Assembly (NCBI GenBank): GCA_002796305.1
Contig: PCWZ01000020.1
Coordinates: forward strand, 27,097 to 61,048
Direction of reading: 5' to 3'
Source of the DNA: Deltaproteobacteria bacterium CG11_big_fil_rev_8_21_14_0_20_49_13
GTDB taxonomy: Bacteria; UBA10199; GCA-002796325; 1-14-0-20-49-13
DNA: 33,952 nucleotides
Both the position numbers and the translations under genes were made by a program. The notes beneath the pieces are model-generated. The model was not told the DNA's origin and searched no databases. It was given only the letters and a program-made list of their open reading frames with translations. Positions 6,624-30,215 of the stretch are shown here, in pieces; the stretch's first letter is position 1, and each line of letters begins with the position of its first letter.

Positions 6624-6625
6624 GT

Positions 6626-8044: not shown

Positions 8045-8054
8045 CAATGCTCCT

Positions 8055-9842: not shown

Positions 9843-9845
9843 GGT

Positions 9846-10901: not shown

Positions 10902-11854
10902 ATCAGTTTTCCTCCACAAGATGACCCGGCCCCCGCCGTGCAGCCATAGCAGTGGTTGGCAAAGGCGATGGGGCTTTTGTTAATTTGATCGAAGGTTTCA
11001 ATATCCCAAATGTTTGTTTTTGTCTTGCCACTAGGGATGTCTAACATCTGGTTAAAATCGCAATCATAGATGTTTCCATCCCACCCGATGGAAATCAGGT
11101 TTCGGCACATGACGATCGAAGCCGCAGTGGCATTGAAGTTGTTCGCGAGCAGTGTCATGTATTCTTCATATTTATTTTCTCTGACCAATTGATCCAAAAA
11201 TCGCTTGATCGGCATGTTGGTAATCGTGAAGAGATGGTTGAATTCGATGCCGAAGAGTTCGTGCAGTTCTTTTTTGTAATCGAGTTCGAGCTTCTCTTGT
11301 GAGGGAGGCAAAAAGGCCCCCAGCGGATTGTAAACCAGATCGAGTGTGAGTCCCGAATCGTTCTTTCCATAACCGAGTTCATTCAATAACAGTAAGGCGC
11401 GAATACTCTTATCGAACACACCACCGCCTCGCTGAGCATCTACATTCTTCTTGGAGTAACACGGAAGAGAGGCCACGACCTTTACCTGATGTGCTTTCAG
11501 AAAATGCGCCGTTTCCTCCTGGCCTTTCTCAAAGAAGACCGTCAGATTACATCGGTCGATCACTTCCTTGTTCCGCTGTCTGGCGGCTGCAACCAGTGTG
11601 CGAAAATGAGGATTGAGTTCGGGCGCGCCGCCGGTGATATCGACGGTGTAAATGGTGGGCGATTGATCCAAGAGTTCGATCAGGCGATCCACCGTTCTCT
11701 TTTCCATGATCTCGGTTCGCTTCGGTCCCGCCTCCACATGACAATGATGGCAGGCCTGGTTGCAGAGCTTGCCGACATTGACTTGCAGGATCTCCAGCGG
11801 TTTGTGCGTGATGTCGATCCGATGTTCAACCAGATTGTTTTCAAATGATCTCAT
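10898..11854 (-). CDS. arsS: Arsenosugar biosynthesis radical SAM enzyme ArsS
   Basis: Radical SAM enzyme of the family that joins a 5'-deoxyadenosyl group from SAM to a dimethylarsenical, the committed step to arsenosugars. The 318-residue product has the canonical cluster motif CNQACHHC (C31, C35, C38), then HVEAGP and VDITGGAPELNPHF. A C-terminal DUF3641 region follows with CRNLISIGWDGNIYDCDFNQ and the cysteine-rich tail CYGCTAGAGSSCGG, which probably binds auxiliary iron-sulfur clusters. It is the first gene of a seven-gene - strand operon and lies behind a recognisable promoter with an overlapping palindrome. The ATG at 11854 is preceded by GAAAGGGG. Length and all motifs look intact. 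Confidence 0.93.
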   Translation of the reverse strand: MRSFENNLVEHRIDITHKPLEILQVNVGKLCNQACHHCHVEAGPKRTEIMEKRTVDRLIELLDQSPTIYTVDITGGAPELNPHFRTLVAAARQRNKEVIDRCNLTVFFEKGQEETAHFLKAHQVKVVASLPCYSKKNVDAQRGGGVFDKSIRALLLLNELGYGKNDSGLTLDLVYNPLGAFLPPSQEKLELDYKKELHELFGIEFNHLFTITNMPIKRFLDQLVRENKYEEYMTLLANNFNATAASIVMCRNLISIGWDGNIYDCDFNQMLDIPSGKTKTNIWDIETFDQINKSPIAFANHCYGCTAGAGSSCGGKLI

Positions 11855-12340: not shown

Positions 12341-15300
12341 ATGAAGATCAGCGTACTGATAGGCTACTTTGCCAAACAAGGAGAGGCTCGTGAGGCGCTC
12401 AAGAAATTACGGCATAAAGGTTTTGGCCGTGCCGCGTTATTAAGCAAGGGTGAGGACGGAAAGGTCAGGGCGCGACGTTCAATTTTTGGCGTCGACCGAA
12501 AGCTCATTAAATATCACGCGCGCCTGCTTGCGTCCGGCGAGACCGTCCTGATACTGCAGGAACCTATCGAAAAGATGCGGGTTCCGTTCGAACTCTTTCT
12601 CGAGATCGGTGAGATACCACCGGCCCTTTTTGTCCTTCATCAGCAGATCAAAGGTCCGAAACTGGAGAACGTTAGTCCCGGAGGAACATCGCTTAATCTC
12701 TCACAACTTCTTGAACATGCTAAAAGTCTGGCCGCAGATCATCAACTTGATCCAAAGCCCGTTAAAAATATAGAACTGTTAAGGCACCTCGAAGAGGGGC
12801 GCAAGTGGGTGCAGTGGGCGTGTCTTAACCTTTCCGAGGCCGGTCATCTGCAACAGAGCGTGTCGCCCGCGGCCGAGTGGCTCCTTGACAATGAATATAT
12901 ACTCGAAAGCACGGCCCGCGACATACGGCTCAATCTTCCGCGTAACTTTTACCGGCAGCTTCCTTCCCTTGCGAACGGCCCCGAACGCGGGTTGCCTCGC
13001 ATCTACGGCCTGGCTCGCGAACTCGTTTCTCACACCGATATGCGCCTAGACGAAGAGAACGTGCTCGCCTTTATCGAAACATATCAGTCCGAAAAGACGC
13101 TCTCGATAGGCGAGCTCTGGGCGGTTCCCCAGATGCTCAGGGCAGTACTGCTCGAAGGCATCGGACAGCTGGCTGAAAGGGCGGTCTCCGATCTGCGCGA
13201 GCGGGAACTGGCCGATCTGTGGGCCAACCGCCTCATAACGGTCACTCGTAGGAAACCACACCAGCTCTTTTCTATCATGGCGGAGCTCTCCGAGTCCGAA
13301 CCTAACCCCAGCCCATGTTTTGCCGCTCAGCTGATAGATTACCTCTACGACGAAGGGACCGCACTGGTCCCCGTGCAGGGCTGGCTTGAAAGAACATTCC
13401 ACAGGACATTGAACGAGCTGACCATTCGTGAGACTAACCGTCAGACCAAGGATCAGCTCTCGATAGGGAACGCCTTTATAAGTTTGCGTCAGCTTTCGCT
13501 TCTTGATTGGAAGAAATGTTTTGAGACACTAAGCAAGGTGGATCAGACGTTGCGGCACGATCCCGCGAACATCTATTCTAAAATGGATTTTGCCACGCGC
13601 GATATGTATCGCCGCGCCATTGAAGATCTCCACCGCGGGTCCGGCCTTTCGGAGGAAGAGGTCGCAAAACAGGCCGTCGAGATGGCTTCTGAAGCGAGCT
13701 TCGGCCCGGGGCGTGATGAGCTTTCGGGGCATGTGGGAACGTATTTGATAGGCGACAGGAGAGGGAATCTGGCCAAACGTGTCGGTTGCAGGGAGGCCCT
13801 TCGCTTCCGTTTTCTTCATTGGGCGTATAGGCATCATACCGCGGTATATTTGATCGGCATCTCCATCTTTACAGCCGCATGTTTTTTCTTCTCTTTCAGA
13901 TTTGGCCTCAACGCACATCTTATTTGGGCCCAGTTGCTCATCGCCGCACTTCTTGTGATCCCAGCGAGCCAGATAGCCCTTGAAACGGTCAATTATCTTA
14001 TAACGCGCATCTTTCCGCCGCGCACCCTGCCGAAAATGGACTTTAAGGTCTCGGGCATTCCCGACGCCTGCAAGACCCTTGTCGTGGTCCCGATGATGCT
14101 GACCGATCTGGAGACGGTGAGGGAAGAAGCGGAAAAGCTCGAGGTCCGCTATTTAGCCAATACGGACAACAATCTTTTGTTCGGCCTTTATTCTGATTTT
14201 ACGGATGCCGACAAGGACCATGTCGAAACGGATGCGCCTTTACTTCATGCCGCCAGAAAGGGCATCGAGTTCTTGAACCAGCGTTATGAAGGCGGGCGTT
14301 TCTTTCTCTTCCACCGCGAGAGGAAATGGTGCGCCTCGGAAGGAAAATTCATCGGCTGGGAGCGAAAGCGCGGAAAACTTGAAGAGCTAAATCGTCTGAT
14401 CGACGGAACAAGAGCGCCGGATGTCGATCCCCTTGTCTACGTAGGGGATCAGGACCGCCTTGCTAATATAAGATATGTGATCACCCTCGACAGCGATACA
14501 CAGTTGCCGCACGACACCGCTCGCAGGATGATAGAGACGCTGTCGCATCCTCTTAACGTGGCGCGTATGCATGGCACAGGTCGTGTCCGGTCTGGCTACT
14601 CTATCATACAACCGCGTGTCAGTCCTTCACTCCCGAGCACGAGCGGCGCGCCATTTAGCAGGCTCTTCTCCGACCCCGTGGGCATCGACCCTTACACGAA
14701 TGCCGTTTCCGACGTTTCGCAGGACCTTGCGGGTGAGGGCTCTTATCACGGCAAGGGTATCTACGACGTTCGAACTTTCAGTAAGGTCCTCTCCGGCAGA
14801 TTTCCGGAGGACCTGCTCCTCAGCCACGACCTTATCGAAGGCTCTCATGTCAGGGTAGGACTTGCCAGCGATATCGAACTGTATGATGAGTTCCCGCAGG
14901 ATTATTTAAGCTACGTTAAAAGGCAACACCGCTGGGTCCGGGGAGACTGGCAGATAGCCGACTGGATACTGCCGCGCGTTCCAAAGGCCGGCGGCGGGCG
15001 TCATGCTAACGTCCTTACGTGGTTCGACCGCTGGAAGGTGCTCGACAACCTCCGTCGCAGCTGGCTCCCCGCGACCAGTTTGGGCTTTCTCATTGCCTCG
15101 TGGTTCATCTCTTCACAGGCCGGGTGGATAGCTACTGCTGTGGTCGCCGTTCAATTGTTCTTTCACTCTCTGGCACAGCCGGTCACTTGGGCGACAACGG
15201 GGCAGGGAATAAAGGGCGTCTCTTTTGCCAAGAAGGTATACGACATGCTACGCGTGCTGGTGGAGGCGGCGTTACTTCCGTATCAGGCATGGCTTTCTTT

Positions 15301-18300
15301 TGATGCAACGATGAGGGTCTTTTATCGTCGGTGCATCTCCCATCGAAGGCTCCTTGAGTGGACCTCGGCACAGGCCGCGCATGGCATTGTCCAGGCCAAG
15401 GTGCCCGTCTTCATTCTTTCACTCGTTCTTATCAGTTCGTTAAGCGTGTTCGTAGGATGGGCGCTACTTCAATTCCGTCCGGAAAGTTTTCAGGCGGCGT
15501 TGCCGTGGCTTATCCTCTGGTTCATCTCGCCTCTCTTTGGATGGCTTCTTAACAGGCGGCCGAAGGTAGAACAGCCGCAATTCATGCTTCCGGCGGAGGA
15601 CCGTCAGTTCATGCGGGATGTTGCGCGGAGGACATGGCGCTATTTCACTGATTTCGTGAACGATGATACCTCGTGGTTGCCGCCGGACAATTATCAGGTC
15701 GCCTATCAGGACAAGCTCGCCATGAGGACGAGCCCTACCAATATTGGACTCTATCTGGTGAGCGTGCTCGGCGCCAAGGATTTTGGATATGTCACTCTAG
15801 ACGATGTTGTCTTTAAACTGAGCAAGACGATGGAGAGCATTGCAAAACTTGAGCGTTACGAAGGCCATCTTTTGAACTGGTATGATATTAAGACGCTGGA
15901 ACCCCTAAGCCCCCGCTATGTTTCCATGGTGGACAGCGGAAACCTGCTCGGTTCGCTCTGGTCCATGGACCAGGGGCTTATTGATCTCATTCAGTCGCCG
16001 CTCCTTGGGCCCCAGGCATTCGAAGGGCTCAAAGACGCGGTGCATGTCTTGCAACAGGTCATCCGCGACGAAAAACAGACTGGCTTTAATTTTCAGGTCA
16101 TGCGTGAACTTATGCAGGCATGGAAGTATCCGCCGGATACCGCTGTCGGGCTTCTTTCTCTCCTTCGAAGGACAGAAAAAGAGACCGGCGACCTTTTCAA
16201 GAGGGCGTTTGATGCCGCCGCACCTAACAAGAAGATAATATATTGGATAAAACAGGTTGAGGACCAGCTTGTGGCATGGAAGAATATCGCCGACCGTTAT
16301 CTTACGTGGATAGAGATCTTGAGCGAAAAGACGGAAGGCGAGATATCCATACTCGACCCTTATGCCGTACCTGCATTCCGTGCCGCCGTTCAAAACGTGC
16401 CGTCGCTTAAAGATATCGCCAGCGGACAGATTCCGTGCATAGCGTCCCTTGCTTTCATACGCACCATTGCGCCGGCGGGCGACGCTGCCCTGCGCGACTG
16501 GATAGACCGGGTCGTCAACGCCTTCGAAAAGTCAAAGTGGCTTGCCAATGAAAAGCTCGATCATTCCATCATACTAATGCATTCAGTGCGCGATCTCTCC
16601 GGCTCGATCAACATGAACTTTCTGTACAATACCGACCGCCGGTTGTTCTCTATCGGATACAACGTCTCTGAAGGACGTCTGGACCGCGCTTTTTACGATC
16701 TGCTGGCGAGCGAAGCGCGCCTGGGAAGTTTCGTTGCCATCGCCCGCGGTGATATTCCCACAGATCACTGGTTCTCCATGAGCCGTCCCTACGGCGCTAT
16801 CGGCCGGCGACGGGTGCTCCTCAGCTGGACCGGGACGATGTTCGAATATCTGATGCCTCTGCTCTTTCAGCGTAGCTATGCAAATTCCTTGCTCGACAAA
16901 TCGACGCGCGAAGCCGTGGCCATTCAGATGGCCTACGGTTCCAAACACCATGTGCCGTGGGGGATATCTGAGTGCGCATACGGCGATCTGGATATTCACA
17001 AGACCCATCAGTACGCGGCCTTCGGTGTGCCTGAACTGGGGCTCAAGCGTGATCTGGCAGAGAGGATGGTCGTTGCGCCTTATGCCACCATGCTGGCGCT
17101 AAATATCGCTCCACAGGCGGCGGTCAAGAACCTGAAAAGATTTTCGGAGCTGGGGCTCCTCAACGATTACGGATATTACGAGGCGATCGATTTTTCCCAA
17201 CAGCCAAGCCGCGAGGGCGAGCACGGCGTGGCGGTAAGAACCTATATGGCTCACCATCAGGGAATGAGCTTTATGGCGCTCACCAATCTGCTCCACGATA
17301 ATTCTCTCCAGCGCCATTTTCACAGCGATCCGCGCGTGCGCGCCGCCGAGTCCCTTTTGCATGAGCGTATTCCGAACACTCCTCCGCTACATCACATCTC
17401 CACGCGCGAGCGTGTTTCTTCCGTTGCGAGTATTGGCGACGTGACGCCCGCGGTGAGTCAGTTCGATACGCCTCATACCAGCAGTCCGAAGACACAACTT
17501 CTTTCCAACAGCCGTTACAGCCTGATGGTAACGAACGCCGGCGGCGGTTACAGCCGTTGGAACAATATTGAGATCACTCGCTGGCGTTCGGACAAGACCC
17601 GAGACCCATGGGGGACATTCTGCTACATACGCGATGTGGATTCGAACCAGCTCTGGTGTAACACCTACCAGCCGACCGTGGGAAAGGTATCTGACTACGG
17701 TGCGAACTTTACGCTCGACAGGGCCATGTTCCGACGCTTTGATCACGGAATAGAAAGTGAGACAGAGGTCGTTGTTGCGCCGGAGGACGATGTAGAGATA
17801 CGGCGGATCACGCTCATCAATCGTACCATGCGTACCCGCAGGCTTGATCTTACGAGTTACGTTGAGCTTTCGATGTCGACGCACGATGCGGACATTAAGC
17901 ATCCGGCCTTCAACAAGCTCTTTATAGAGACCGAAGCCTTGCCGGAGGAACATGTGCTACTCGCGCATCGTCGTCCTCGTCTTAGCGATGAAGCCCCTGT
18001 GTTCGTTGCGCACCGCCTGACGTTCGATGGCGAGCAGAACGAAGACCTGCGTTTCGAGACCGACCGTAGGCGTTTTATAGGCCGCGGAAGAACTATTGCA
18101 AGTCCCATGGGGGCGTCGCAGGAGCCGGGACGCAGCCAAGGATTTGTTCTGGACCCAGTATTGAGCCTTCGCAAGAGCGTGGTGCTTCATCCGGGTAAGC
18201 GAGTACAGGTATCCATGGTGCTTGCCGCGGGAGAGTCGCGGGAACATGCGCTTAGTCTGACCGCCAAGTACGGCGACGTGCATGCCATCGATCATGCACT

Positions 18301-21300
18301 TGATCTTGCGTGGGCCTCCGCCCAGCTTGAACTGCGTCTGCTACGCATTCAACCTGACGACGCCCGCTCTTTTCAGCAGCTGGCAAGTCATCTTCTCTAT
18401 CCCGGTTCGCTTCTTCGTTCTACATCTGAACGAATTTCACAGAATAGAAAGGGACAGTCAGGCCTCTGGGCCTATTCAATCTCCGGGGACCTTCCTATTC
18501 TCCTTGTCGCAGTCAGTGAGGCGAGGGACTTGGGGCTTGTAAGGCAATTGCTTCAGGCCCACACATATTGGCGGATGCACGGGCTGATGGCGGATCTCGT
18601 CATTCTTAATGAAGAGGCCGCCGGCTACACCCAGCCGCTACGCGAACAGCTTGAACATCTCGTTCAGTCTCATACCGCGGTCACGGGTGTGGATAAACCG
18701 GGCGGAGTGTTCCTTCGCAGTGCGGATATCATTGCGCCGGAAGACCTCACGCTTCTTAGGGCCGTGGCGAGCGTTGTGATGGTTGTGGCACGCGGCACAC
18801 TCCAGCAGCAATTGAGTGCGCCTCTCAAGGCCCCCGACATGCCGGAAAATATAGTTCTAAGGCGTGCTTCAAAGGATCCTTCGGCCGCACTCCCGTTCAT
18901 GGATCTCCCATTCTTTAACAGCGTTGGAGGTTTTACCACCGACGGCCGTGAATACGCCGTCTATCTTGCTCCGGGGATCAATACACCGGCACCTTGGGTA
19001 AATGTGATCGCTAACCCGAACTTCGGCACGCTCGTAAGTGAAACGGGTTCGGGATTTACTTGGGCCGGCAACAGTCAGCGCAATCGTCTGACCCCATGGT
19101 CGAACGATCCGGTCACAGATCCTCCTTCAGAGGCTATCTATATTCGTGACGAAGATACCGGCGTCTTCTGGACGCCGACCGCGTCGCCTATTCGCGAAAA
19201 GACCGCGTACCGCGCCAGACACGGTGCCGGATATTCTGTCTATGAACATAACAGCCACGGCATAGAACAGGAGCTGATAGTATTCGTTCCTGTGAATGAC
19301 GATGGCGGAGAGCCGATTAAGCTGCAAAGGCTCACACTTAAGAACGATACCGCAAGGACGCGAAAGATCTCTGTGACCCATTATGCCGAGTGGACGCTCG
19401 GAGAGATCCGCGAATCATCGCAGTCCCATATCGTCACTGACTGGGACAGTGATACGAATATTCTGACGGCACGCAATTTCTATAATCCAGATTATGGCGA
19501 CAAGGTAGCCTTTGCCGCCCTGAGCATGAACGCCGCTTCATACACCGGTGATCGCACCGCCTTTATGGGAAGGAACCGGTCCATGGAAGACCCTGCGGCG
19601 ATGGAGAGAAAGAGACTCTCTCGCCGGACGGGCGCCGGGCTTGACCCTTGTGCCGCGCTTCAGGTCACATTAAAACTTGCCCCGGGCGAACAGGTCGAGA
19701 TCACCTGCATGCTGGGTGAGGCTAACTCGGTTGACGAGGCTCAGGAGCTGGTCTTTGCCTATCGCGACGATCTCCATTTTTCGGACTCCCTTGAAGAGAC
19801 GAAGGACTGGTGGAACAACCGGCTTGGAACTATCGAGATACACACGCCGGAGCTGGCCACCGACATTATGATCAACCGGTGGACGCTCTATCAAAATCTT
19901 TCCTGCCGCATATGGGGACGTTCCGCGTTCTATCAATCAAGCGGAGCTTTCGGGTTCCGCGATCAGCTTCAGGACGTTATGGCCCTCTTGTACTCGTATC
20001 CGGACCTCGCGCGCTCACACATTCTTTACGTTGCAAGCCGCCAGTTCAAGGAAGGGGACGTTCAACACTGGTGGCAACCGCTTAGCGGAGAAGGGATCCG
20101 CTCTAGGATATCCGACGACCTTCTGTGGCTCCCCTTTGTGGCCGCCCAGTATGTCAGGGTCACCGGCGATACGGGGATCCTGAATGAAATTGTCCCGTAT
20201 CTCGATGCGCCGTTACTTAAAGAGGACCAGCACGAGACCATCCAGAAACCGGTGATATCATCCGAGAGCGGCACGCTCTTCGAACATTGCGAGCGCGCGG
20301 TAAAACGCGGCCAGAGGTTCGGTAGCCATGGATTGCCCCTGATGGGGACGGGTGATTGGAACGACGGAATGAATCTTGTAGGGGCCCAAGGGAAGGGCGA
20401 GAGCGTTTGGCTCGCATGGTTCATGGCGGAGGTCCTTAGCCGCATGTCGGAGATGGCAGTGGTCTTGAAACGTCCGGAACTGGGTAGCGCCTATATCAAA
20501 GAACGTGAAGCGATCATTGAACACGTTGAAAAATCTGCATGGGACGGAGAGTGGTATCTAAGGGCGTTCTTTGACGACGGTTCGCCGCTTGGTTCCGCAA
20601 CGAGCGATGAAGCCAAGATCGATTCAATAGCCCAATCGTGGGCCATTTTAAGCGGCGGCGGCGATAAGGTACGCACAGCGAAGGCCCTAGAGTCGGCGTG
20701 GAACCGACTTGTTAGCGAGGAGAAAGGTTTGGCAATGCTACTTGAACCGCCGTTCGACAAAGCGGTCCCTTCACCGGGATATATCAAGGGATATCCGCCG
20801 GGTATCCGTGAGAACGGAGGCCAGTATACCCATGCCGCTCTATGGCTTGCCATGGCCATGGCGCGCAGCGGAGACGGAACCCGTGCTTATAAGATACTCC
20901 GACTCTTAAATCCCATAGAACACGCGCACGACCCGGACATGGTCTGGCGTTACGGGTTGGAACCTTACGTAGTGGCGGCGGATGTCTATGCCGCCCAGGG
21001 ATGGATGGGACACGGCGGCTGGAGCTGGTACACAGGTTCGGCGTCGTGGATGTACCGCGTCTGGGTGGAAGAGATCCTCGGACTCAAGGTGCGAGGCGAA
21101 ACGTTGCAGATCGATCCGGTCATTCCGGGAGAATGGGACGGATTTAAGATGACCTACCGGCACGGTGATGCGGTCTATGATATAGAGGTCTTGAACCCGG
21201 AACGCTGTGAGAAGGGCGTTGCTTTTATGGAGCTCGATGGCAAGCGCATTAAAAATGGAGTGATAGGGCTAAGCCGTGAACTTATCAAGCATCGTGTTGT

Positions 21301-21328
21301 TGTGAAAATGGGAAAAGGCGTGGTATGA
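12341..21328 (+). CDS. ndvB: Cyclic beta-1,2-glucan synthase (NdvB/ChvB/Cgs family)
   Basis: Giant inner-membrane enzyme of 2,995 residues, comparable to rhizobial and Brucella homologues (about 2,830-2,870). The order of domains is: a small N-terminal domain (about 1-100) beginning MKISVLIGYFAKQGEAREAL; a cytosolic region; two membrane helices (about 499-550); a GT84 glucosyltransferase with DSD (D717, D719) and RQHRWVRGDWQ (861-871); more helices (about 905-950 and 1020-1070); a glucoamylase-like domain (about 1090-1650); and two carbohydrate-binding plus GH94 phosphorylase regions with GDWNDGMN (D2672-D2675). These parts initiate, elongate, and cyclise or trim a periplasmic osmoregulated glucan. 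No NdvA/ChvA-type exporter is adjacent. The start is the first ATG in frame with a full N-terminus; its Shine-Dalgarno is poor. No frameshift is apparent. Confidence 0.93.
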   Translation: MKISVLIGYFAKQGEAREALKKLRHKGFGRAALLSKGEDGKVRARRSIFGVDRKLIKYHARLLASGETVLILQEPIEKMRVPFELFLEIGEIPPALFVLHQQIKGPKLENVSPGGTSLNLSQLLEHAKSLAADHQLDPKPVKNIELLRHLEEGRKWVQWACLNLSEAGHLQQSVSPAAEWLLDNEYILESTARDIRLNLPRNFYRQLPSLANGPERGLPRIYGLARELVSHTDMRLDEENVLAFIETYQSEKTLSIGELWAVPQMLRAVLLEGIGQLAERAVSDLRERELADLWANRLITVTRRKPHQLFSIMAELSESEPNPSPCFAAQLIDYLYDEGTALVPVQGWLERTFHRTLNELTIRETNRQTKDQLSIGNAFISLRQLSLLDWKKCFETLSKVDQTLRHDPANIYSKMDFATRDMYRRAIEDLHRGSGLSEEEVAKQAVEMASEASFGPGRDELSGHVGTYLIGDRRGNLAKRVGCREALRFRFLHWAYRHHTAVYLIGISIFTAACFFFSFRFGLNAHLIWAQLLIAALLVIPASQIALETVNYLITRIFPPRTLPKMDFKVSGIPDACKTLVVVPMMLTDLETVREEAEKLEVRYLANTDNNLLFGLYSDFTDADKDHVETDAPLLHAARKGIEFLNQRYEGGRFFLFHRERKWCASEGKFIGWERKRGKLEELNRLIDGTRAPDVDPLVYVGDQDRLANIRYVITLDSDTQLPHDTARRMIETLSHPLNVARMHGTGRVRSGYSIIQPRVSPSLPSTSGAPFSRLFSDPVGIDPYTNAVSDVSQDLAGEGSYHGKGIYDVRTFSKVLSGRFPEDLLLSHDLIEGSHVRVGLASDIELYDEFPQDYLSYVKRQHRWVRGDWQIADWILPRVPKAGGGRHANVLTWFDRWKVLDNLRRSWLPATSLGFLIASWFISSQAGWIATAVVAVQLFFHSLAQPVTWATTGQGIKGVSFAKKVYDMLRVLVEAALLPYQAWLSFDATMRVFYRRCISHRRLLEWTSAQAAHGIVQAKVPVFILSLVLISSLSVFVGWALLQFRPESFQAALPWLILWFISPLFGWLLNRRPKVEQPQFMLPAEDRQFMRDVARRTWRYFTDFVNDDTSWLPPDNYQVAYQDKLAMRTSPTNIGLYLVSVLGAKDFGYVTLDDVVFKLSKTMESIAKLERYEGHLLNWYDIKTLEPLSPRYVSMVDSGNLLGSLWSMDQGLIDLIQSPLLGPQAFEGLKDAVHVLQQVIRDEKQTGFNFQVMRELMQAWKYPPDTAVGLLSLLRRTEKETGDLFKRAFDAAAPNKKIIYWIKQVEDQLVAWKNIADRYLTWIEILSEKTEGEISILDPYAVPAFRAAVQNVPSLKDIASGQIPCIASLAFIRTIAPAGDAALRDWIDRVVNAFEKSKWLANEKLDHSIILMHSVRDLSGSINMNFLYNTDRRLFSIGYNVSEGRLDRAFYDLLASEARLGSFVAIARGDIPTDHWFSMSRPYGAIGRRRVLLSWTGTMFEYLMPLLFQRSYANSLLDKSTREAVAIQMAYGSKHHVPWGISECAYGDLDIHKTHQYAAFGVPELGLKRDLAERMVVAPYATMLALNIAPQAAVKNLKRFSELGLLNDYGYYEAIDFSQQPSREGEHGVAVRTYMAHHQGMSFMALTNLLHDNSLQRHFHSDPRVRAAESLLHERIPNTPPLHHISTRERVSSVASIGDVTPAVSQFDTPHTSSPKTQLLSNSRYSLMVTNAGGGYSRWNNIEITRWRSDKTRDPWGTFCYIRDVDSNQLWCNTYQPTVGKVSDYGANFTLDRAMFRRFDHGIESETEVVVAPEDDVEIRRITLINRTMRTRRLDLTSYVELSMSTHDADIKHPAFNKLFIETEALPEEHVLLAHRRPRLSDEAPVFVAHRLTFDGEQNEDLRFETDRRRFIGRGRTIASPMGASQEPGRSQGFVLDPVLSLRKSVVLHPGKRVQVSMVLAAGESREHALSLTAKYGDVHAIDHALDLAWASAQLELRLLRIQPDDARSFQQLASHLLYPGSLLRSTSERISQNRKGQSGLWAYSISGDLPILLVAVSEARDLGLVRQLLQAHTYWRMHGLMADLVILNEEAAGYTQPLREQLEHLVQSHTAVTGVDKPGGVFLRSADIIAPEDLTLLRAVASVVMVVARGTLQQQLSAPLKAPDMPENIVLRRASKDPSAALPFMDLPFFNSVGGFTTDGREYAVYLAPGINTPAPWVNVIANPNFGTLVSETGSGFTWAGNSQRNRLTPWSNDPVTDPPSEAIYIRDEDTGVFWTPTASPIREKTAYRARHGAGYSVYEHNSHGIEQELIVFVPVNDDGGEPIKLQRLTLKNDTARTRKISVTHYAEWTLGEIRESSQSHIVTDWDSDTNILTARNFYNPDYGDKVAFAALSMNAASYTGDRTAFMGRNRSMEDPAAMERKRLSRRTGAGLDPCAALQVTLKLAPGEQVEITCMLGEANSVDEAQELVFAYRDDLHFSDSLEETKDWWNNRLGTIEIHTPELATDIMINRWTLYQNLSCRIWGRSAFYQSSGAFGFRDQLQDVMALLYSYPDLARSHILYVASRQFKEGDVQHWWQPLSGEGIRSRISDDLLWLPFVAAQYVRVTGDTGILNEIVPYLDAPLLKEDQHETIQKPVISSESGTLFEHCERAVKRGQRFGSHGLPLMGTGDWNDGMNLVGAQGKGESVWLAWFMAEVLSRMSEMAVVLKRPELGSAYIKEREAIIEHVEKSAWDGEWYLRAFFDDGSPLGSATSDEAKIDSIAQSWAILSGGGDKVRTAKALESAWNRLVSEEKGLAMLLEPPFDKAVPSPGYIKGYPPGIRENGGQYTHAALWLAMAMARSGDGTRAYKILRLLNPIEHAHDPDMVWRYGLEPYVVAADVYAAQGWMGHGGWSWYTGSASWMYRVWVEEILGLKVRGETLQIDPVIPGEWDGFKMTYRHGDAVYDIEVLNPERCEKGVAFMELDGKRIKNGVIGLSRELIKHRVVVKMGKGVV

Positions 21329-21673: not shown

Positions 21674-21931
21674 ATGCCAGAAAAAAAGAACGCAGGATTC
21701 ATGAAGCCGTTGCAACCGGATGCGGCGTTGGCCGCGGTCGTAGGGGACAAACCGTTGCCCAGAACGGAAGTTGTTAAAAGTCTTTGGGTCTACATCAAGA
21801 AGAACGGTCTTCAGGATGCCAATAACAAGCGCAACATCAACGCAGACGAAAAACTGAAACTGGTGTTCGGCGGCAAATCACAGGTTAACATGTTCGAGAT
21901 GACGAAGCTCGTTTCCGCTCATCTGAAGTGA
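21674..21931 (+). CDS. SWIB/MDM2-domain protein
   Basis: The 85-residue product consists of one SWIB fold: LAAVVGDKPLPRTEVVKSLW, then VYIKKNGLQDANNKRNINAD, KLKLVFGGKSQVNMFEMTKL, and a C-terminal helix. SWIB domains are common in eukaryotic chromatin remodellers. Stand-alone bacterial versions occur in chlamydiae and some other bacteria, where a nucleoid or topoisomerase role has been proposed. A GGGGGG run lies a few bases before the ATG. The gene is 28 bp upstream of the histidine kinase and probably the first gene of that operon. Whether it regulates the operon or is only co-transcribed is unknown. Confidence 0.9.
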   Translation: MPEKKNAGFMKPLQPDAALAAVVGDKPLPRTEVVKSLWVYIKKNGLQDANNKRNINADEKLKLVFGGKSQVNMFEMTKLVSAHLK

Positions 21932-21959
21932 TCCATAAAAAGTGCTCGAGGCTAATTTA

Positions 21960-23423
21960 ATGTTACAGCTGGATAATTGTGTCACCACAAGCCATTTAGA
22001 TATTTTGTCCACCCGTATACATTGGTTCATCCAGATGAGGTGGATATTTATAACCATTCTCTTGCTTTTTTGCTGCGTGGCCGGCCTTTTTTATCCTGTC
22101 ATAGATGTTGAAAAATTCCTTGCCCTAGGATTTTTTCTTGTAGCTTTAAACGTGGTCTATCTTGTGATCGACAAAAGAACGAAGAAAAGGTATTCATCCT
22201 CGACTCAGATCTATGTTTTTATCGGCACCCAGTTCGTCTTTGATTACATTGTACTGTCGCTCTTTTTATACTATTCGGGAGGTGTCGCAAACCCCCTGAT
22301 CTACATATTTCTTTTCAATGTTATCATATCCTGCTTGCTGTTGCCGAACGCTTTAGTGTTGGCGATCACCTTCTCTTCGATCGTGTTCTTTCTTGCTCTC
22401 GCCTTCATGAGCCAGTTCGGTATCATACCATATTATCCTTTTCCGCTTGTCTGGCAGGGGATCATCATACCGAAACCCAGCAACGTTCTTTTTCTGATTG
22501 AAGCGGGATGTTTCGTTCTTGTGATCGCGGTGATGTTGTATTTCGTCGCCAACATCACTGCTCTTCTGCGGAAGAGGGAAGAGCTGCTTAGAGGCACCAT
22601 CAATGAGCTGAAGATGATGGAGGACGTTCGAATGAAGACGATGATGCACGTGGCGCACGATCTAAAGGCGCCGCTCGCCGCCGCCCAGTCTTCCATCAAA
22701 TCGGTCGCAGACGGTTTTGTCGGGCCCATCAGTGAAAAGGTGAGGTCGATCCTTTTTAACGCCTATCGTCGTTGCCACAACATGACAGCGATGGTCAAAG
22801 ACATGTTCGATCTCATAAGATTTGACGAACAGATAATGCGCGGCGAATTGATAGCGGAGAGATTTTCTCTGGGAGCTCTAATGGATAACGTAAAGGAGCA
22901 ATTCGATTCGCCATATCACGGGAAGAGCATTCAGTGGGATATCAAGATAGATGGAACAATAGAGATAAATGCCAATGTGGGGCAGATCGGAGCTCTGTTA
23001 TCACAGCTTGTCTCCAACGCGATTAAATATTCCGGAGACCCGGTCAATATATCCATATCTGCAGAAAAATCTGGCGACGACCTGATTTTAGTTGTAAACG
23101 ACGATGGAGTTGGGATATCCGTTGAAGAGCGGGAAAGGGTGCTGGATGAGTTCTACCGTACGGTCAAGGCAAAGAAGATGGAAAAGGACGGAGTTGGTCT
23201 TGGACTAGCCATAGTGCAAAAGATAGTGAAGTTCTACAACGGCAAGATCAGCATAGACGATGGACCGGAGAAAAAGGGGACGACGTTCACGATTCTCTTG
23301 TCGAATGTAATGGATGTTCGGGGGCCGCAAGCTTTTGTTGGGACGGATTTGGAGAGAGCCGCCAGGCGGCGTTTTTTTGAGCCCTGCGAGGAGTCTCCTA
23401 AAGAAATAGAAAATAAATGGTAA
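21960..23423 (+). CDS. Membrane-bound sensor histidine kinase
   Basis: The 487-residue kinase has about six hydrophobic segments in residues 20-200 and no large periplasmic loop, so it probably senses through its membrane region. A short coiled linker (LLRKREELLRGTINELKMME) leads to HisKA with the phospho-acceptor H233 in HDLKAPL. A HATPase_c domain follows with N-box QLVSNAIKYS, G1 DDGVGIS and G2 GVGLGLAIVQK. A short charged tail ends the protein. The ATG at 21960 has GAGG eight bases upstream; a GTG at 21942 would add six residues and lacks a site. It lies 22 bp before the gene for the receiver-citrate-synthase fusion, its probable partner. Confidence 0.93.
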   Translation: MLQLDNCVTTSHLDILSTRIHWFIQMRWIFITILLLFCCVAGLFYPVIDVEKFLALGFFLVALNVVYLVIDKRTKKRYSSSTQIYVFIGTQFVFDYIVLSLFLYYSGGVANPLIYIFLFNVIISCLLLPNALVLAITFSSIVFFLALAFMSQFGIIPYYPFPLVWQGIIIPKPSNVLFLIEAGCFVLVIAVMLYFVANITALLRKREELLRGTINELKMMEDVRMKTMMHVAHDLKAPLAAAQSSIKSVADGFVGPISEKVRSILFNAYRRCHNMTAMVKDMFDLIRFDEQIMRGELIAERFSLGALMDNVKEQFDSPYHGKSIQWDIKIDGTIEINANVGQIGALLSQLVSNAIKYSGDPVNISISAEKSGDDLILVVNDDGVGISVEERERVLDEFYRTVKAKKMEKDGVGLGLAIVQKIVKFYNGKISIDDGPEKKGTTFTILLSNVMDVRGPQAFVGTDLERAARRRFFEPCEESPKEIENKW

Positions 23424-23445: not shown

Positions 23446-25239
23446 ATGAAGAAGTTCAAGATACTTGTGGTCGATGACGATAAGGACCTGCTGGATGTCG
23501 TAAGGCTTGTTCTTGAGAAAGAAGGATTTGAGGTCTTTACCGCCGCGAGTTCCGGCGAGTGTTATGATTCTCTCGAAAAGAACGCTCCCGATCTTGTGAT
23601 ATTAGATGTGGTCATGGGGGAGAAGAAGGACGGATTCGAGATCTGCAGGGATATCAAGACGCAACCTAAATACAAGGGCATTCCGGTCATGATGCTTACG
23701 GCGGTGAACGAATATTTTCCGTTCGATTTCAAGTCGGACGAGAATTGGTTGCCCAGCGACGCTTTTTTGGATAAACCGTTTGAACCGGAGATTCTGGTCA
23801 ACTGCGCACGAAAACTTTTGGGGATTGCAACACAAAAGGCGGACGCGCCCAAGCTCAAATTCAACGTCCTGCCGGCGATCGATTCGTTGTGCTGGAAGGG
23901 GAAAGTGTCTTCTCCGCAAAAGCTACCGAATCCTGAACAGCCAAATTTACTAAGAGAGATATTTCCGTATTCAAGCGTTCCCAAGATTGCATTTGATAAC
24001 ATCTCCGTTCCCATGTCTCCGGCTGAGGAGATATGGATAACATGTACCACCTTCCGCGATGGACAACAGGCGCGCGTGCCATACACGGCCGATCAGATAG
24101 TCGATCTTTATGACATGCTACATAAACTTAGCGGCCCGAACGGCATCATTCGACAGTGCGAATTCTTTCTCTATAACAAAAAGGACAGGGAGGCTATTAT
24201 CAAGTGCCTTTCGCGAGGTTATCAATATCCGGAGGTGACGGGTTGGGTGCGCGCTTCCGAGGTCGATTTCAAGGGTATCAAGTGGATGGGGCTGAAGGAG
24301 ACCGGGCTTTTACTCTCGGCGTCCGACTATCACATCTATCTGAAAATGGGCAAGGACAGGGAGAAAGTGATGGATGACTATATAAAACTTGTCTGTCAGG
24401 CTATCGAAACCGGCGTAAAACCGCGTTGTCATTTAGAGGATATTACAAGGGCGGATATGTATGGTTTTGTTCTACCCCTTGTACAACGTCTCATGCGTGT
24501 GTCTGAGGACTCCAGGGTTCCCGTTAAGATCCGTATGTGCGACACGATGGGGTATGGCGTTCCGTTCGCGGAGGCTTCACTACCAAGAAGCGTTCCAAAG
24601 ATAGTGACGTTACTTAGGAAAGAAGCGGGCGTTCCTTCAGCACAGCTCGAATGGCACGGCCATAACGATTTTCACCTTGTAATGGCAAATTCCATGGCGG
24701 CATGGCTCTACGGTTGTTCGGCCGTTAACGGTACGTTGTTGGGGTTCGGCGAACGCACCGGCAACTCGCCGATCGAGGCCTGTTGCATTGCTTACGCGGA
24801 GCTGACCGGGACATCTAACGGAATGGACCTGACGAAGATAACCGATATCGCGAAATATCTTGAAGAAAAGACCGGATTCAATGTGCCGCCCAACTATCCT
24901 TTTGTGGGTAGATATTTCAACACAACCATGGCCGGCATTCATGCCGACGGGCTCATCAAAAATGAGGAAATATATAACATATTTGATACGACGAAGATAC
25001 TAAAGAGGCCGCTAGCCGCGCTTGTGAGCGACAAATCAGGTCTGGCCGGTATAGCCCTGTGGTATAGTCAGTTCCTGGGCTTGACGGGCGAGGATCAAAT
25101 AAAAAAGACCGACCCCGGCATAGAAAAAGTGTATGAATGGGTGAAGGCGCAGTATAGTGATAAGCGCGTCACCGCAATATCGCCGCAAGAGCTTATCGAA
25201 CAAGGGAGGAGATGCTTGGGCGACAGATTCTTTAGATAA
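23446..25239 (+). CDS. Response-regulator receiver domain fused to Re-citrate/homocitrate-synthase-type enzyme
   Basis: The 597-residue product is a two-part fusion. Residues 1-120 form a complete CheY-like receiver with acidic D10-D12, phospho-acceptor D54 (VILDVVMG), T85 (MMLTAV) and K110 (FLDKPF). A linker of about 70 residues follows. From about 190 comes an HMGL/DRE-TIM enzyme domain: TTFRDGQQ (R203, D204), RMCDTMGYGVP, the metal-binding HGHND (H403, H405) and LLGFGERTGN (433-439). The C-terminal LeuA regulatory domain of isopropylmalate synthase is absent. Location directly before aconitase and isocitrate dehydrogenase suggests it condenses acetyl-CoA and oxaloacetate to citrate (Re-citrate synthase). 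Homocitrate or isopropylmalate synthesis is not excluded by motif alone. GGAGG precedes the ATG. There is no DNA-binding output. Confidence 0.88.
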   Translation: MKKFKILVVDDDKDLLDVVRLVLEKEGFEVFTAASSGECYDSLEKNAPDLVILDVVMGEKKDGFEICRDIKTQPKYKGIPVMMLTAVNEYFPFDFKSDENWLPSDAFLDKPFEPEILVNCARKLLGIATQKADAPKLKFNVLPAIDSLCWKGKVSSPQKLPNPEQPNLLREIFPYSSVPKIAFDNISVPMSPAEEIWITCTTFRDGQQARVPYTADQIVDLYDMLHKLSGPNGIIRQCEFFLYNKKDREAIIKCLSRGYQYPEVTGWVRASEVDFKGIKWMGLKETGLLLSASDYHIYLKMGKDREKVMDDYIKLVCQAIETGVKPRCHLEDITRADMYGFVLPLVQRLMRVSEDSRVPVKIRMCDTMGYGVPFAEASLPRSVPKIVTLLRKEAGVPSAQLEWHGHNDFHLVMANSMAAWLYGCSAVNGTLLGFGERTGNSPIEACCIAYAELTGTSNGMDLTKITDIAKYLEEKTGFNVPPNYPFVGRYFNTTMAGIHADGLIKNEEIYNIFDTTKILKRPLAALVSDKSGLAGIALWYSQFLGLTGEDQIKKTDPGIEKVYEWVKAQYSDKRVTAISPQELIEQGRRCLGDRFFR

Positions 25240-25249
25240 ACAAAAAAAT

Positions 25250-27175
25250 ATGAACATCACAGAAAAAATATTAAGGGCGCACTTGCTTGAGGGTGAATAT
25301 AAGGATGGTGCCACCATCGGTATTAAAATAGACCAAACACTGACACAAGACGCCACCGGAACGATGGCGTTCCTGCAGTTCGAGGCGATAGGGCTGAAAA
25401 AGGTCCGGACCGAGCTGAGTCTGAGCTACGTTGATCACAATACGGTTCAGATGGGTTTTGAAAACCCGGACGATCATGCCTATCTGGCCGATGTTGCGGC
25501 AAAACACGGTGTCCTTTATTCACGATGCGGTAACGGGATATGCCATCAGGTTCATCTGGAAAGATTCGCTCGCCCCGGCAAAACTCTCATTGGCTCGGAC
25601 AGCCATACTCCGACAGCCGGCGGTGTGGGGAGCCTTGCCTGCGGAGCGGGCGGAATAGATGTGGCTGCCGCCATGGCGGGGGCACCGTATTACATTCAGG
25701 TGCCGAAGGTGGTGAACATCGTCCTTTCCGGACGTCTTCCACCATGGACATCCGCAAAGGATATAATCTTAAAAGTCCTTTCAATCCTGACCACTAAGGG
25801 AAACGTTGGTACGGTTATCGAATATTCGGGAGATGCGATAGCGCATCTTACCGTTCCCGATCGCGCCACAATAACGAACATGGGGGTGGAACTGGGCGTC
25901 ACAACTTCGCTCTTTCCGTCCGATGCACAGGCGCTGAAATTTCTGAAGGCGCAGAACAGAGAGTCGGATTTCGTCGAACTATTGCCCGACAGCGATGCGT
26001 CATACCACAGAACGATCAATATCGATCTGTCGGAGCTTGAGCCTCTCGCCGCAGGACCTCATAGCCCCGATAATGTAATGCCGGTCGGAAGCCTTGCCGG
26101 GCTTAAGGTAAGTCAGGTCTGCATCGGCAGTTGCACCAATTCGTCATACAAGGACATTGACACGGTTGCAAAGATGCTGGACGGCAGGGTCGTTCATAAG
26201 GATGTCAGCCTTGTCATTGTGCCCGGTTCAAGGCAGGTATTGGAAATGGCAGCAGGGAGCGGGGCGCTGGCGAAATTTGTCTCTGCCGGGGCAAGGATCG
26301 TCGAACCGAGTTGCAGTTTTTGCATCGGGATGGGGCAATCTCCGAAAAGCGGCGGGGTCTCTGTCAGGACGAACAATCGCAACTTTGAGGGTCGCTCCGG
26401 CACAAAGGACGCCAAGATCTATCTTGTGAGCCCGGAAATAGCGGTGCTTGTGGCTCTGCATGGCGAATTCGTTGACCCTTCGAAATTTGGCATCCCTCCC
26501 CGCGCGGAAATGCCGAAAAAATTCCTGATAAACGATAATATGGTAGTCTGGCCGCCGAAAGATGGGCAAGAGGTTACGATCAGGCGGGGTCCGAACATCG
26601 GCGATCCGCCGACGATCGGTGAGTATCCAAAGGACCTGACAGCAAAGGTGGCGATAGTCGTCGGCGATAAGATCACCACCGATCATATTATTCCTGCCGG
26701 CCAGAGAATGAAGTTCCGTTCGAATATCAAGGCCTATTCGCAATACGTCTTTGAAACGGTTGATCCGACGTTTCACGACCGATGCAAGGAAAATCTGAAG
26801 GGCGGTTTTAACAACGCCATAGTCGGCGGCCTGAGTTATGGACAGGGTTCATCCCGCGAACATGCCGCCCTGTGCCCGGCGTATTTGGGCGTGCGAACGG
26901 TTTTTGCAGGTTCTATCGAACGCATCCATTTTGCGAACCTGATCAACTTCGGGATACTTCCGCTCATATTCGAAGAAGGTGCCGCAAGACCTTCTGCCGG
27001 CGACGTGGTCGTTGTCGAGAACATCAGAAATAAGATAGTCAAGGATAGGGTTATTTCCGTTCTCAACAAGACCAAGGGAAATAGTTTTAATGTGATCTGC
27101 GATTTGTCCGACCGTCAACGGAGGATCGTGCTGGCCGGCGGGTTGCTCAATTTTATAAAGGGAGGAATGACATGA
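25250..27175 (+). CDS. acn: Aconitate hydratase, Aquifex-type short form
   Basis: Iron-sulfur enzyme interconverting citrate and isocitrate. The 641-residue product has [20 protein letters not shown], the cluster ligands C291 (CIGSCTNSS), C355 and C358 (CSFCIGMG), [13 protein letters not shown], and a swivel domain with [11 protein letters not shown] and [17 protein letters not shown]. The length fits the putative aconitase group of about 640-650 residues rather than the 890-residue AcnA or AcnB. The ATG at 25250 gives the normal N-terminus ([12 protein letters not shown]) ten bases after the upstream stop; the longer frame from 25157 is inside the fusion gene. No Shine-Dalgarno is visible, so translation may be coupled. 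The end overlaps icd by ATGA. Confidence 0.94.
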
Positions 27176-28425
27176 CGCCAGGATTTGAAAAGGTAGCAGT
27201 TCCAAAAAATGGGGAAAGAATAAGCGTTAGCGACGGGAAATTTCAGGTTCCAGATCATCCGATCGTATGTTTCATAGAGGGTGATGGGATCGGTCCGGAT
27301 CTGTGGAGGGCTTCGCAGAAAGTCTTCGACGCCGCTGTTGAAAAGTCTTATGGTGGCAAGAAAAAGATATCGTGGATGGAGATCTACGCCGGCGAAAAGG
27401 CAAATAAAGTGTATGGAAAGGAAGTTTGGCTGCCGGACGAGACGCTGAAGGCCCTGGAATATTTTCACGTAGGCATCAAGGGGCCGCTGACCACTCCGAT
27501 TGGCGGAGGCATCAGGAGCATCAACGTTTCACTTCGCCAAAAGCTCGACCTCTACACCTGTATCAGGCCCGTCAGGTGGCTCAAGGGGGCGCCTTCCCCC
27601 GTTAAGCATCCCGAGAAATTGAACGTGGTCATTTTTAGGGAAAACACCGAAGACGTCTATGCCGGCATCGAATGGGCCGCAGGAACTGAAGAGGCGGACA
27701 AGGTGCTAAAATTCCTGAACGATTCGCTCAAAACGAACATAAGGGAGCGGTCGGCAATAGGCATTAAGTCGATGAGCGCCTTTTGCAGCAAGCGGCTGGT
27801 AAGGATGGCGATAAACTATGCCAAGCAACACGGCATTTCAAGCGTGACCCTCGTTCATAAGGGCAACATTATGAAATTCACCGAGGGAGGATTTCGCGAT
27901 TGGGGTTATGAACTTGCGCGTCAGGAGTTCGCTGATGTAACGGTGACCGAAGAGATTGTGACCAAACAATACGGCGGCAAGGTGCCGGCGGGGAAGATCG
28001 TGATCAAGGACAGGATAGCCGACAGCATGTTCCAGCAGGCGCTATTGCGTCCCGACGAATATAGCGTCCTTGCCACGCCCAACTTAAACGGCGACTATCT
28101 GTCCGACGCGTGTGCCGCACAGGTGGGCGGTCTTGGAACGGCTCCGGGCGCCAATGTGGGCGATACGGTGGCGCTATTTGAAGCGACGCATGGCACCGCT
28201 CCAAAATATGCAGACAAAGATGTATCTAACCCTGGTTCGGTCATTCTTTCCGGCGTTATGATGCTGGAGCTTATGGGATGGAACGATGCGGCTTCGGCTA
28301 TCGTCAGAGCGCTTGAACGGACGATCGGGCAGAAGGTCGTTACCTACGACCTCGCTCGGCAGATGCCGGACGCTCGCAAGGTCAAGTGCTCGGAGTTTGG
28401 AACGGCGATAGTCAAAAATCTTTAA
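27172..28425 (+). CDS. icd: Isocitrate dehydrogenase, NADP-type
   Basis: Converts isocitrate to 2-oxoglutarate and CO2. The 417-residue product matches bacterial Icd throughout: [11 protein letters not shown], the substrate-binding [48 protein letters not shown] and [11 protein letters not shown]. The K-Y pair after THGTAP and the Y-R pair in TYDLARQM are those used for the NADP 2'-phosphate in the E. coli enzyme, so NADP is expected. The serine phosphorylated by the kinase/phosphatase AceK in enterics is present in SINVS; AceK is not in the window. ATG overlaps the aconitase stop. Length is normal and intact. Confidence 0.95.
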
Positions 28426-28451: not shown

Positions 28452-30215
28452 ATGGCTACAGCGATCGAAAAATGGGTAGAAGAACAGGCAAATCTCGCGA
28501 AGCCCAAGAATATCCATTGGTGCGACGGTTCCGATGAAGAGGCGCATCGTTTGATAGAGATCGGCCTGAAGGAGGAGGAAATCAACGGCCACAAGGTCTT
28601 TTCAGAGCTCAGCAACTATCCGGGTAGCTACCTTCACCGAAGCCATCCGTCTGATGTGGCTAGAACGGAACATTTGACCTTTGTTTGTCATCCCGACAAA
28701 GAAACGGTCGGGCCCAACAATAACTGGATGGATCCTGCGTCAGCAAAGGCCAAGATGATCGCGCTTTCTGACGGTTGCATGAAGGGAAGAACTATGTACG
28801 TCCTTCCTTATATGATGGGTCATCCCGAATCTTCCTATGCCAAGGCGTGTATCCAGATCACCGACACTTCATATGTTGCAATCAGCATGAGGATCATGAC
28901 CCGCTTGGGCAAGAACGTTCTCGACAAGATAGGGAACTCGCAGAATTTTGTGAAGGGTTTTCATTCGATAGGGGACCTGGATCCGGAGAAGCGGTTCATC
29001 ATGCATTTTCCCCTTGAAGGTCTCGTTTGGAGCGTTGGTTCCGGATACGGCGGCAACGCGTTGCTGGGTAAAAAATGTTTTTCGCTTAGGATCGCTTCTT
29101 GGTTGGGCCTGAACGAGGGCTGGCTTGCCGAACATATGGTGATCATAGGCATCGAAGATCCCGAAGGAAAGGTCACTTATGTCACTGCCGCCATGCCTTC
29201 GGCCTGCGGCAAAACGAACCTTGCCATGCTTGAATCGGCGCTTCCGGGACATAAGGTCTGGACGCTTGGCGATGACATTGCGTGGTTGAACGTCGGCCCG
29301 GACGGAAGGTTATGGGCGATAAATCCAGAGGCCGGATTTTTTGGCGTGGCTCCCGGCACGTCCATGAGTACGAATCCAAACATGATACGGATGCTCAAAA
29401 AGGGGACGTTCTACCCGACTTTATTTACAAATACCGCGCTTGACACGAAGACGAACGAACCGTGGTGGGAGGGGCTTACCAAAACTCCGCCGGACGATCT
29501 TCTCGACTGGCAGGGCAGACCATGGAAGCCGGGTTCTGAAGGCAAGGCGGCTCATGCGAATTCCAGGTTTACCGTATCCCTTACACACTGTCCAACGCTT
29601 TCCAAGGAATCTGACAATCCGGTAGGCGTGCCGATATCCGCGATCATTTTTGGCGGGCGCAGAAAACAGCTCATCCCGCTCGTTACGGAAAGTTTCAATT
29701 GGGCTCACGGTGTCTTCTCCGGGGCACGTATGGGTTCTGAAACCACGGCGGCCGCGACCTCAAAGATAGGGCAATTGCGCAGAGACCCGATGGCCATGAT
29801 CCCGTTCTGTGGCTACAATATGGCGGACTATTTTGGGAACTGGCTGAAGATAGGAAAAAAGTGCACAAAGCCGCCGAAAATATTTTCGGTTAACTGGTTC
29901 AGGGCGGACGACGAAGGTAATTTTATCTGGCCCGGTTTTGGAGATAATATTCGCGTTCTCAAGTGGATCATCGATAGAACGGCCGACCGTGTTCCCGCGG
30001 AGGAGACCCCGATCGGTCTCGTACCGCGTATCAAGGACCTCGATGTAGACGGCATGGACATTCCAAAAGGCAAGCTAGCAAAACTTTTCGAAGTCGATAT
30101 GAGCGAATGGAAGGATGAGGTGAACGATATTCGCGGTTTCTTGGCCCGGTTCGGGACCCGCCTGCCAAAAGAGCTGGCGGATGAGCTGAAGAACCTTGAT
30201 GCAAAAGCGCGATAG
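28452..30215 (+). CDS. pckG: Phosphoenolpyruvate carboxykinase (GTP)
   Basis: Interconverts oxaloacetate and GTP with PEP, CO2 and GDP. The 587-residue product belongs to the GTP-dependent class: NYPGSYLHRSHPSDVART, the kinase loop PSACGKTNLAML (about 249-260), GDDIAWLN, and FSVNWFRADDEGNFIWPGFG with the nucleotide-binding asparagine and aromatic residues. A strong AAGGAGG lies seven bases before the ATG. It is the last gene of the + strand operon, downstream of icd by 26 bp. Since it consumes or makes oxaloacetate, it competes with the citrate-forming enzyme encoded in the same unit. Confidence 0.96.
   Translation: MATAIEKWVEEQANLAKPKNIHWCDGSDEEAHRLIEIGLKEEEINGHKVFSELSNYPGSYLHRSHPSDVARTEHLTFVCHPDKETVGPNNNWMDPASAKAKMIALSDGCMKGRTMYVLPYMMGHPESSYAKACIQITDTSYVAISMRIMTRLGKNVLDKIGNSQNFVKGFHSIGDLDPEKRFIMHFPLEGLVWSVGSGYGGNALLGKKCFSLRIASWLGLNEGWLAEHMVIIGIEDPEGKVTYVTAAMPSACGKTNLAMLESALPGHKVWTLGDDIAWLNVGPDGRLWAINPEAGFFGVAPGTSMSTNPNMIRMLKKGTFYPTLFTNTALDTKTNEPWWEGLTKTPPDDLLDWQGRPWKPGSEGKAAHANSRFTVSLTHCPTLSKESDNPVGVPISAIIFGGRRKQLIPLVTESFNWAHGVFSGARMGSETTAAATSKIGQLRRDPMAMIPFCGYNMADYFGNWLKIGKKCTKPPKIFSVNWFRADDEGNFIWPGFGDNIRVLKWIIDRTADRVPAEETPIGLVPRIKDLDVDGMDIPKGKLAKLFEVDMSEWKDEVNDIRGFLARFGTRLPKELADELKNLDAKAR

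Follow-up and report, generated by a model that had tools for sequence, protein, structure and literature searches.

A single uninterrupted reading frame within the DNA analysed here (33,952 nucleotides, hereafter the window) joins a phospho-receiver domain to an enzyme that, by every test available to sequence comparison, belongs to the Re-citrate synthases of the Clostridium kluyveri type. This architecture probably makes the synthase itself a response regulator, in which the phosphorylation state of the receiver would alter the activity or the assembly of the enzyme. The frame starts with ATG, follows a good ribosome-binding site (GGAGG) and comprises 597 codons; it lies in a run of genes with the following features.

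21674..21931, + strand: SWIB/MDM2-domain protein, 85 aa, first gene of the run (Pfam PF02201, E 2.1e-29)
21942..23423, + strand: sensor histidine kinase, 493 aa (Pfam HisKA, with the H-box HDLKAP, and HATPase_c)
23446..25239, + strand: fusion of a receiver and a predicted Re-citrate synthase, 597 aa (open reading frame and Pfam)
23446..23823, + strand: receiver domain, residues 1-126 (PF00072, alignment with stand-alone receivers, AlphaFold2)
23605..23607, + strand: codon of the predicted phospho-acceptor D54 (sequence and alignment)
23824..23889, + strand: linker, residues 127-148, without homologue
23890..25236, + strand: predicted Re-citrate synthase catalytic region, residues 149-597 (PF00682, identity to relatives, invariant residues)
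25250..27175, + strand: aconitate hydratase, 642 aa (NCBIfam PRK07229 equivalog, 872.8 bits against a cut-off of 612)
27172..28425, + strand: NADP-dependent isocitrate dehydrogenase, 417 aa (TIGR00183 equivalog, 653 bits against a cut-off of 567)
28452..30215, + strand: GTP-dependent phosphoenolpyruvate carboxykinase, 587 aa (NCBIfam PRK04210 equivalog)

The kinase frame begins after a 10-nt gap from the SWIB/MDM2 frame, 22 nt separate the kinase stop from the start of the fusion gene, and aconitase starts 10 nt past the latter; the isocitrate dehydrogenase frame shares its first 4 nt with the end of the aconitase frame and is followed, after 26 nt, by phosphoenolpyruvate carboxykinase. The adjacency of the fusion gene to aconitase and isocitrate dehydrogenase, on which the preliminary description had leaned in naming the enzyme, is upheld by the equivalog matches. 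In 16 of 80 related loci, the homologue is likewise followed closely, on the same strand, by aconitase and/or isocitrate dehydrogenase; the distance is 72 nt in L032, the closest relative. A terminator-like hairpin with a T run (GCCGCCAGGCGGC GTTTTTTT) is found at 23358-23380 (+), within the kinase frame at its 3' end and just before the fusion gene; hairpins of this kind are no more frequent in the region than chance would give.

Elsewhere in the window, a gene run at 5964-11854 (-) encodes a VTT-domain protein, a pyridine-nucleotide oxidoreductase, SAM methyltransferases, a DUF2064 protein and a radical-SAM DUF3641 protein, and is reminiscent of arsenosugar (ArsM/ArsS) clusters. A 2995-aa frame with a family-2 glycosyltransferase stretch at 12341-21328 (+) resembles a cyclic beta-glucan synthase (NdvB-like).

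Reading frame, receiver and kinase

In the 597-residue product, Pfam places Response_reg (PF00072) at residues 6-119 with an E value of 1.3e-18 and HMGL-like (PF00682) at residues 198-470 with an E value of 3.3e-29, both better than the curated cut-offs. The claim that a complete receiver stands in frame with a complete HMGL/DRE-TIM enzyme is thus borne out by the single frame, the Pfam matches and the motifs. Residues 149-165 (CWKGK..) already resemble the N-terminus of the relatives, which reads KWRKPKG.. in L032 and VWREPTGKK.. in L045 (a W-K motif); the linker between receiver and synthase then amounts to only about 20 residues.

The two domains might nevertheless be separate genes, a prospect that the preliminary description had itself raised and that did not come true on computational checking, as one open frame spans both. 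Their joining by an assembly or sequencing error, or by a recent stop loss, appears most unlikely. Such an event would accord with a single draft genome of 92 contigs and with the lack of a second genome carrying the fusion; against it, the frame is open across the linker and runs into residues that are like the relatives' N-terminus, neither a second start with a good Shine-Dalgarno sequence nor a leftover stop is seen, and the third positions of the linker codons are rich in GC, like those of coding DNA, although this last sign is weak in so short a stretch. A frameshift or a missed stop between the domains was also considered and was rejected on inspection of the linker sequence. It is likewise very unlikely that two products are made, with a stand-alone synthase initiated at the internal GTG codon 154 (23905) and the fusion a minor or accidental species. 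The purine-rich stretch GGAAGGGGAAA precedes GTG154 and the resulting protein of about 444 aa would have the normal family length, but homology to the relatives already sets in at about residue 149-150, before this codon, and the Shine-Dalgarno-like stretch simply encodes K-G-K, such stretches arising by chance.

A scripted residue check found D10-D11-D12, D54, T85 and K110 in the receiver, that is, the acidic pocket, the phospho-acceptor Asp, the Thr/Ser and the Lys of a two-component response regulator, and when the domain is aligned with seven other receivers, D10, D11, D54 and K110 show no variation. A Pro is usual in receivers a few residues past the phospho-Asp (DxxMP). Here it is replaced by Gly (DVVMG), so that the receiver, which had been described as complete, is intact in its catalytic residues but departs from the usual form after D54. 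AlphaFold2 run with receiver homologues gave a receiver-like alternation of strands and helices over residues 1-126, mostly at pLDDT 80-94, with a weak stretch at residues 87-100 (the alpha4 region); in the run with enzyme homologues, the receiver stayed at pLDDT 50 or below. The Gly in place of Pro and the poorly predicted alpha4 region suggest that the output face of this receiver may be atypical.

A histidine kinase with a hydrophobic N-terminal half, HisKA and HATPase ends 22 nt upstream of the fusion gene, as befits a response regulator with its cognate kinase nearby, and this membrane kinase is presumed to be the partner of the fused receiver. Two related kinases, one a paralogue encoded elsewhere in this genome (G000:C65) and the other a homologue from a sister genus (G022:C108), are about 30% identical to it; the gene directly after each of them encodes a receiver that stands alone, is about 130 aa long and is 36-38% identical to the receiver of the fusion. 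An extended stretch after beta4 (VN..F...F....W.P) is common to the fused and the paired stand-alone receivers, and the latter stop where the fusion frame continues into the linker. The kinase-receiver pair is thus shown to be of a lineage type whose receivers normally stand alone. Since the paralogous kinases pair with stand-alone receivers, it is the receiver here that became fused to the synthase; sequence comparison therefore suggests that the receiver came from a kinase-receiver pair of the type that is native to this family. In two sister-family genomes, a stand-alone receiver adjoins a hydrogenase maturation protease-like gene (L021:329-868, +; L014:528-986, -), and these neighbours hint at redox or H2 as a possible stimulus of the paralogous kinase-receiver pair.

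Identity and probable acquisition of the enzyme

The motifs RDG (204-206), HGH (404-406) and GERTGN (435-440) are present in the fusion protein, and D205, H404 and H406 are predicted to form the metal site. With enzyme homologues, AlphaFold2 modelled a barrel from about residue 180 to 597, in blocks mostly at pLDDT 70-97, so that the profile match, the motifs and the fold all point to the DRE-TIM, HMGL-like catalytic domain that is proper to Re-citrate synthases. The top PDB matches of the modelled barrel are homocitrate, methylthioalkylmalate, isopropylmalate and citramalate synthases.

The relatives were drawn from a scan of one genome per species across 84,980 species. The best 80 are 55-64% identical to the fusion enzyme over nearly the entire synthase and come from Omnitrophota, Zixibacteria, Nitrospirota, anammox Planctomycetota, Desulfobacterota, Clostridia, Paenibacillus and others. 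The fusion enzyme retains each of the 90 residues that do not vary within the family, and 35 of these occur in none of the 12 LeuA-like outgroup sequences. In a tree of 57 sequences, in which LeuA-like proteins and three annotated NifV proteins served as outgroups, the fusion enzyme groups with the Re-citrate synthase family, apart from both outgroups, with 100/100 support. In this tree, the family is anchored through the Kuenenia homologue (L063) and PMC8027424 rather than through a characterised sequence: the fusion enzyme is about 58% identical to the Kuenenia homologues, and for the K. stuttgartiensis homologue, in turn, an identity of 55.1% to the characterised enzyme of C. kluyveri has been reported (PMC8027424). 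Labelling in Kuenenia revealed an oxidative route to 2-oxoglutarate though no citrate synthase is annotated, and the authors of that study themselves call for biochemical proof of the enzyme (PMC8027424). Re-citrate synthase has been named in Firmicutes, Chloroflexota and Thermodesulfobacteriota, and it is often misannotated as homocitrate or isopropylmalate synthase (PMC12016533).

Both of these assignments were considered for the fusion enzyme and rejected. For 2-isopropylmalate synthase (LeuA), no C-terminal LeuA regulatory domain was found by Pfam in the fusion protein, leuCD partners are missing, the curated LeuA model scores far under its cut-off and the tree split is 100/100. For homocitrate synthase (NifV/LysS), the scores lie below the cut-offs of TIGR02660, the NifV model (152.6 against 462.9), and TIGR02146 (109.6 against 413.6), and the tree separates the enzyme from NifV.

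The source genome, a draft of 1.96 Mb, is 96.4% complete, and a profile search found no Si-citrate synthase (PF00285) in it; the control search with this profile works in 13 of 14 genomes, and a match was obtained in about 40 of the 45 relatives from the same phylum, a strong one in about 36. The Re-type enzyme is thus found where the Si enzyme is absent, as in a replacement of the latter. One other HMGL-like gene is present, encoding a 351-aa aldolase-type protein that adjoins radical-SAM genes, and the genome has no LeuA-like second synthase. The aconitase of the run is the sole aconitase-family gene, without a second aconitase or LeuC. With a single aconitase-family gene and no second synthase, the usual leucine and homocitrate routes are therefore not on offer.

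The naming as a Re-citrate synthase, which had been inferred in part from the gene neighbourhood, is accordingly strengthened by the tree, the invariant residues and the genome complement, and the contrary outcome envisaged for it, a placement among isopropylmalate or homocitrate synthases, did not materialise. That the enzyme is some other DRE-TIM acyltransferase (a homocitrate, isopropylmalate or citramalate synthase) lying by chance beside aconitase and isocitrate dehydrogenase is extremely unlikely: homocitrate and isopropylmalate synthases supply the best-scoring library models and likewise the closest solved structures, yet all of these models score far below cut-off, and the 100/100 separation from LeuA-like and NifV sequences, the 35 residues absent from the outgroup and a genome lacking LeuC or a second aconitase as well as Si-citrate synthase all speak for a Re-citrate synthase. 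The Re stereochemistry itself is inferred from this family membership.

No orthologue of the Re-citrate synthase was found in the same-phylum relatives, where only LeuA-type matches at about 30% or receiver-only matches occur. The simplest reading is that the enzyme was gained from outside the phylum and that the native Si enzyme was lost. A distant relative, 39% identical, occurs on Deinococcus plasmids (L030:2694-5272 and L029:1696-4017), divergent to a gene for a Si-type citrate/2-methylcitrate synthase, and the L030 pair is flanked by transposases.

Distribution of the fusion and Cache-bearing relatives

The architecture was searched across genomes, as the preliminary description had proposed, and among the samples examined this genome alone showed the fusion. 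The search covered 46 same-phylum, 334 Omnitrophota, 395 L053/Desulfobacterota-group, 296 Nitrospirota, 133 Zixibacteria-group and 44 Auribacterota-group genomes and 80 named loci, with a strict cut-off for the Nitrospirota and Zixibacteria-group searches, and no second receiver-Re-citrate synthase fusion was found in these genome groups (for L053/Desulfobacterota, among the matches listed). The L053/Desulfobacterota group gave 192 matches, and among those listed all alignments begin at residue 143 or later; the alignments likewise begin past the receiver in 12 Omnitrophota matches and, at the strict cut-off, in seven Nitrospirota and two Zixibacteria-group matches. Among 135 frames read directly and 20 more, which are samples rather than a census, a receiver is present only in the fusion gene. 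In L029 and L177, the long open frames that lie upstream proved on reading not to be receivers, and a scan of viral contigs found nothing. As the fusion is unshared by the relatives, there is no conserved joint architecture from which selection could be proved. In a single Omnitrophota case (L122:2980-3360, -), a separate stand-alone receiver lies directly upstream, on the same strand, of a Cache-fused Re-citrate synthase, possibly as an unfused counterpart of the fusion.

A C-terminal Cache/PDC sensor domain is found on the Re-citrate synthases of 35 of 80 named loci, in 78 of 135 frames and in 15 of 20 Auribacterota-group loci. Its bearers include L034, L036-L038, L043, L045, L047, L053-L059, L065, L068, L071-L075, L077-L080, L082, L084, L086, L091, L092, L101, L102, L108 and L109, and the Cache-fused taxa comprise Desulfobacterota, Nitrospirota, Spirochaetota and most of the Omnitrophota and Auribacterota ones. 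The domain spans about 145-170 aa and has conserved R-x-W-F, Y and D residues (71 rows), a motif resembling that of the amino-acid-binding dCache_1 domains; by this analogy, it could possibly serve as a cytoplasmic feedback sensor, for example of glutamate. A paper on Cache-fused Re-citrate synthases was not found. The wider pattern, in many anaerobes, is thus one of Re-citrate synthases fused to signalling domains.

The Cache domain is missing from the fusion protein. In a 140-row tree, the fusion enzyme nevertheless falls inside a mostly Cache-bearing clade (98% SH-aLRT), next to L032, which has no Cache, and L045, which has one; the 57-sequence tree groups the same three at 98/81, the deeper branching order being without resolution. 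Because of this nesting, sequence comparison makes it likely that Cache was lost and a receiver gained in the fusion lineage. More tentatively, at somewhat less than an even chance, Re-citrate synthase may be seen as a repeatedly rewired, signal-controlled entry enzyme, in which control by a Cache ligand was swapped for control by kinase phosphorylation through a local receiver fusion, after acquisition from outside and loss of the Si enzyme.

Proposed mechanism and comparison with known systems

Citrate synthase is the entry to the TCA cycle, and its control is usually ascribed to metabolites or to gene expression. In the mechanism that we favour, the upstream membrane histidine kinase would sense a signal and autophosphorylate, and the phosphate would pass to Asp54 of the N-terminal receiver, a step suggested by the intact residues, the adjacent kinase and the general behaviour of receivers. 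The phosphorylation state of D54 would then alter, in one direction or the other, how active the C-terminal synthase is or how it assembles; the synthase would condense acetyl-CoA and oxaloacetate to citrate, to be converted through the aconitase and isocitrate dehydrogenase of the same run to 2-oxoglutarate and glutamate. Carbon entry into citrate would thereby come under phosphorylation control, and a membrane sensor would set TCA entry within seconds, without transcription. The switch can be tested directly with one purified protein and the neighbouring kinase.

The receiver may instead be fused without gating catalysis, serving in docking, localisation or stability, as a phosphate sink or as the passenger of a recent fusion, with the enzyme constitutive. 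Such a role, which we regard as unlikely, would agree with the occurrence of the fusion in this genome only among those examined, with AlphaFold2 having yielded no credible receiver-barrel interface (pTM 0.39, receiver-homologue run) and with the tendency of receivers to work through protein-protein interaction, as stated in PMC5847659. However, the phosphotransfer residues are all kept, a kinase of cognate type adjoins and the linker to the enzyme is only about 20 residues long, which argues against such a role.

By the chain of identities, the invariant residues and the genome without Si-citrate synthase, the fusion enzyme is of the same family as the C. kluyveri Re-citrate synthase (Li et al. 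2007, as cited in PMC8027424 and PMC12016533). It differs from the relatives in that these have either no extra domain or a C-terminal Cache, whereas the N-terminal receiver occurs, among the homologues found, only in the fusion. The Cache/PDC-fused enzymes, near which it nests, share the catalytic domain and the principle of an attached signalling module; however, theirs is a C-terminal ligand-binding sensor, while that of the fusion is an N-terminal phospho-receiver. The kinase-receiver pairs of G000:C65 and G022:C108 have the same gene order and related receivers, but these stand alone, with no enzyme attached.

The preliminary description held that receivers normally drive DNA binding or signalling, which is true; nonetheless, proteins in which a receiver is joined to a standard metabolic enzyme already form an acknowledged class, each with a narrow distribution, according to PMC5847659 (citing Galperin 2006, 2010), in which archaeal KaiC-REC, BcsA-like proteins, thioredoxin reductase and pyruvate phosphate dikinase are given as examples. 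A receiver fused to a citrate synthase was not found in the open-licence literature. The present fusion is like these regulators in combining a receiver with an enzyme, in its narrow distribution and in its presumed environmental control; its output, however, is the committing enzyme of citrate synthesis, which is not named among these examples. Receiver-enzyme fusions are thus known as a class, and what is new here, within the open-licence literature, is a citrate synthase as the output.
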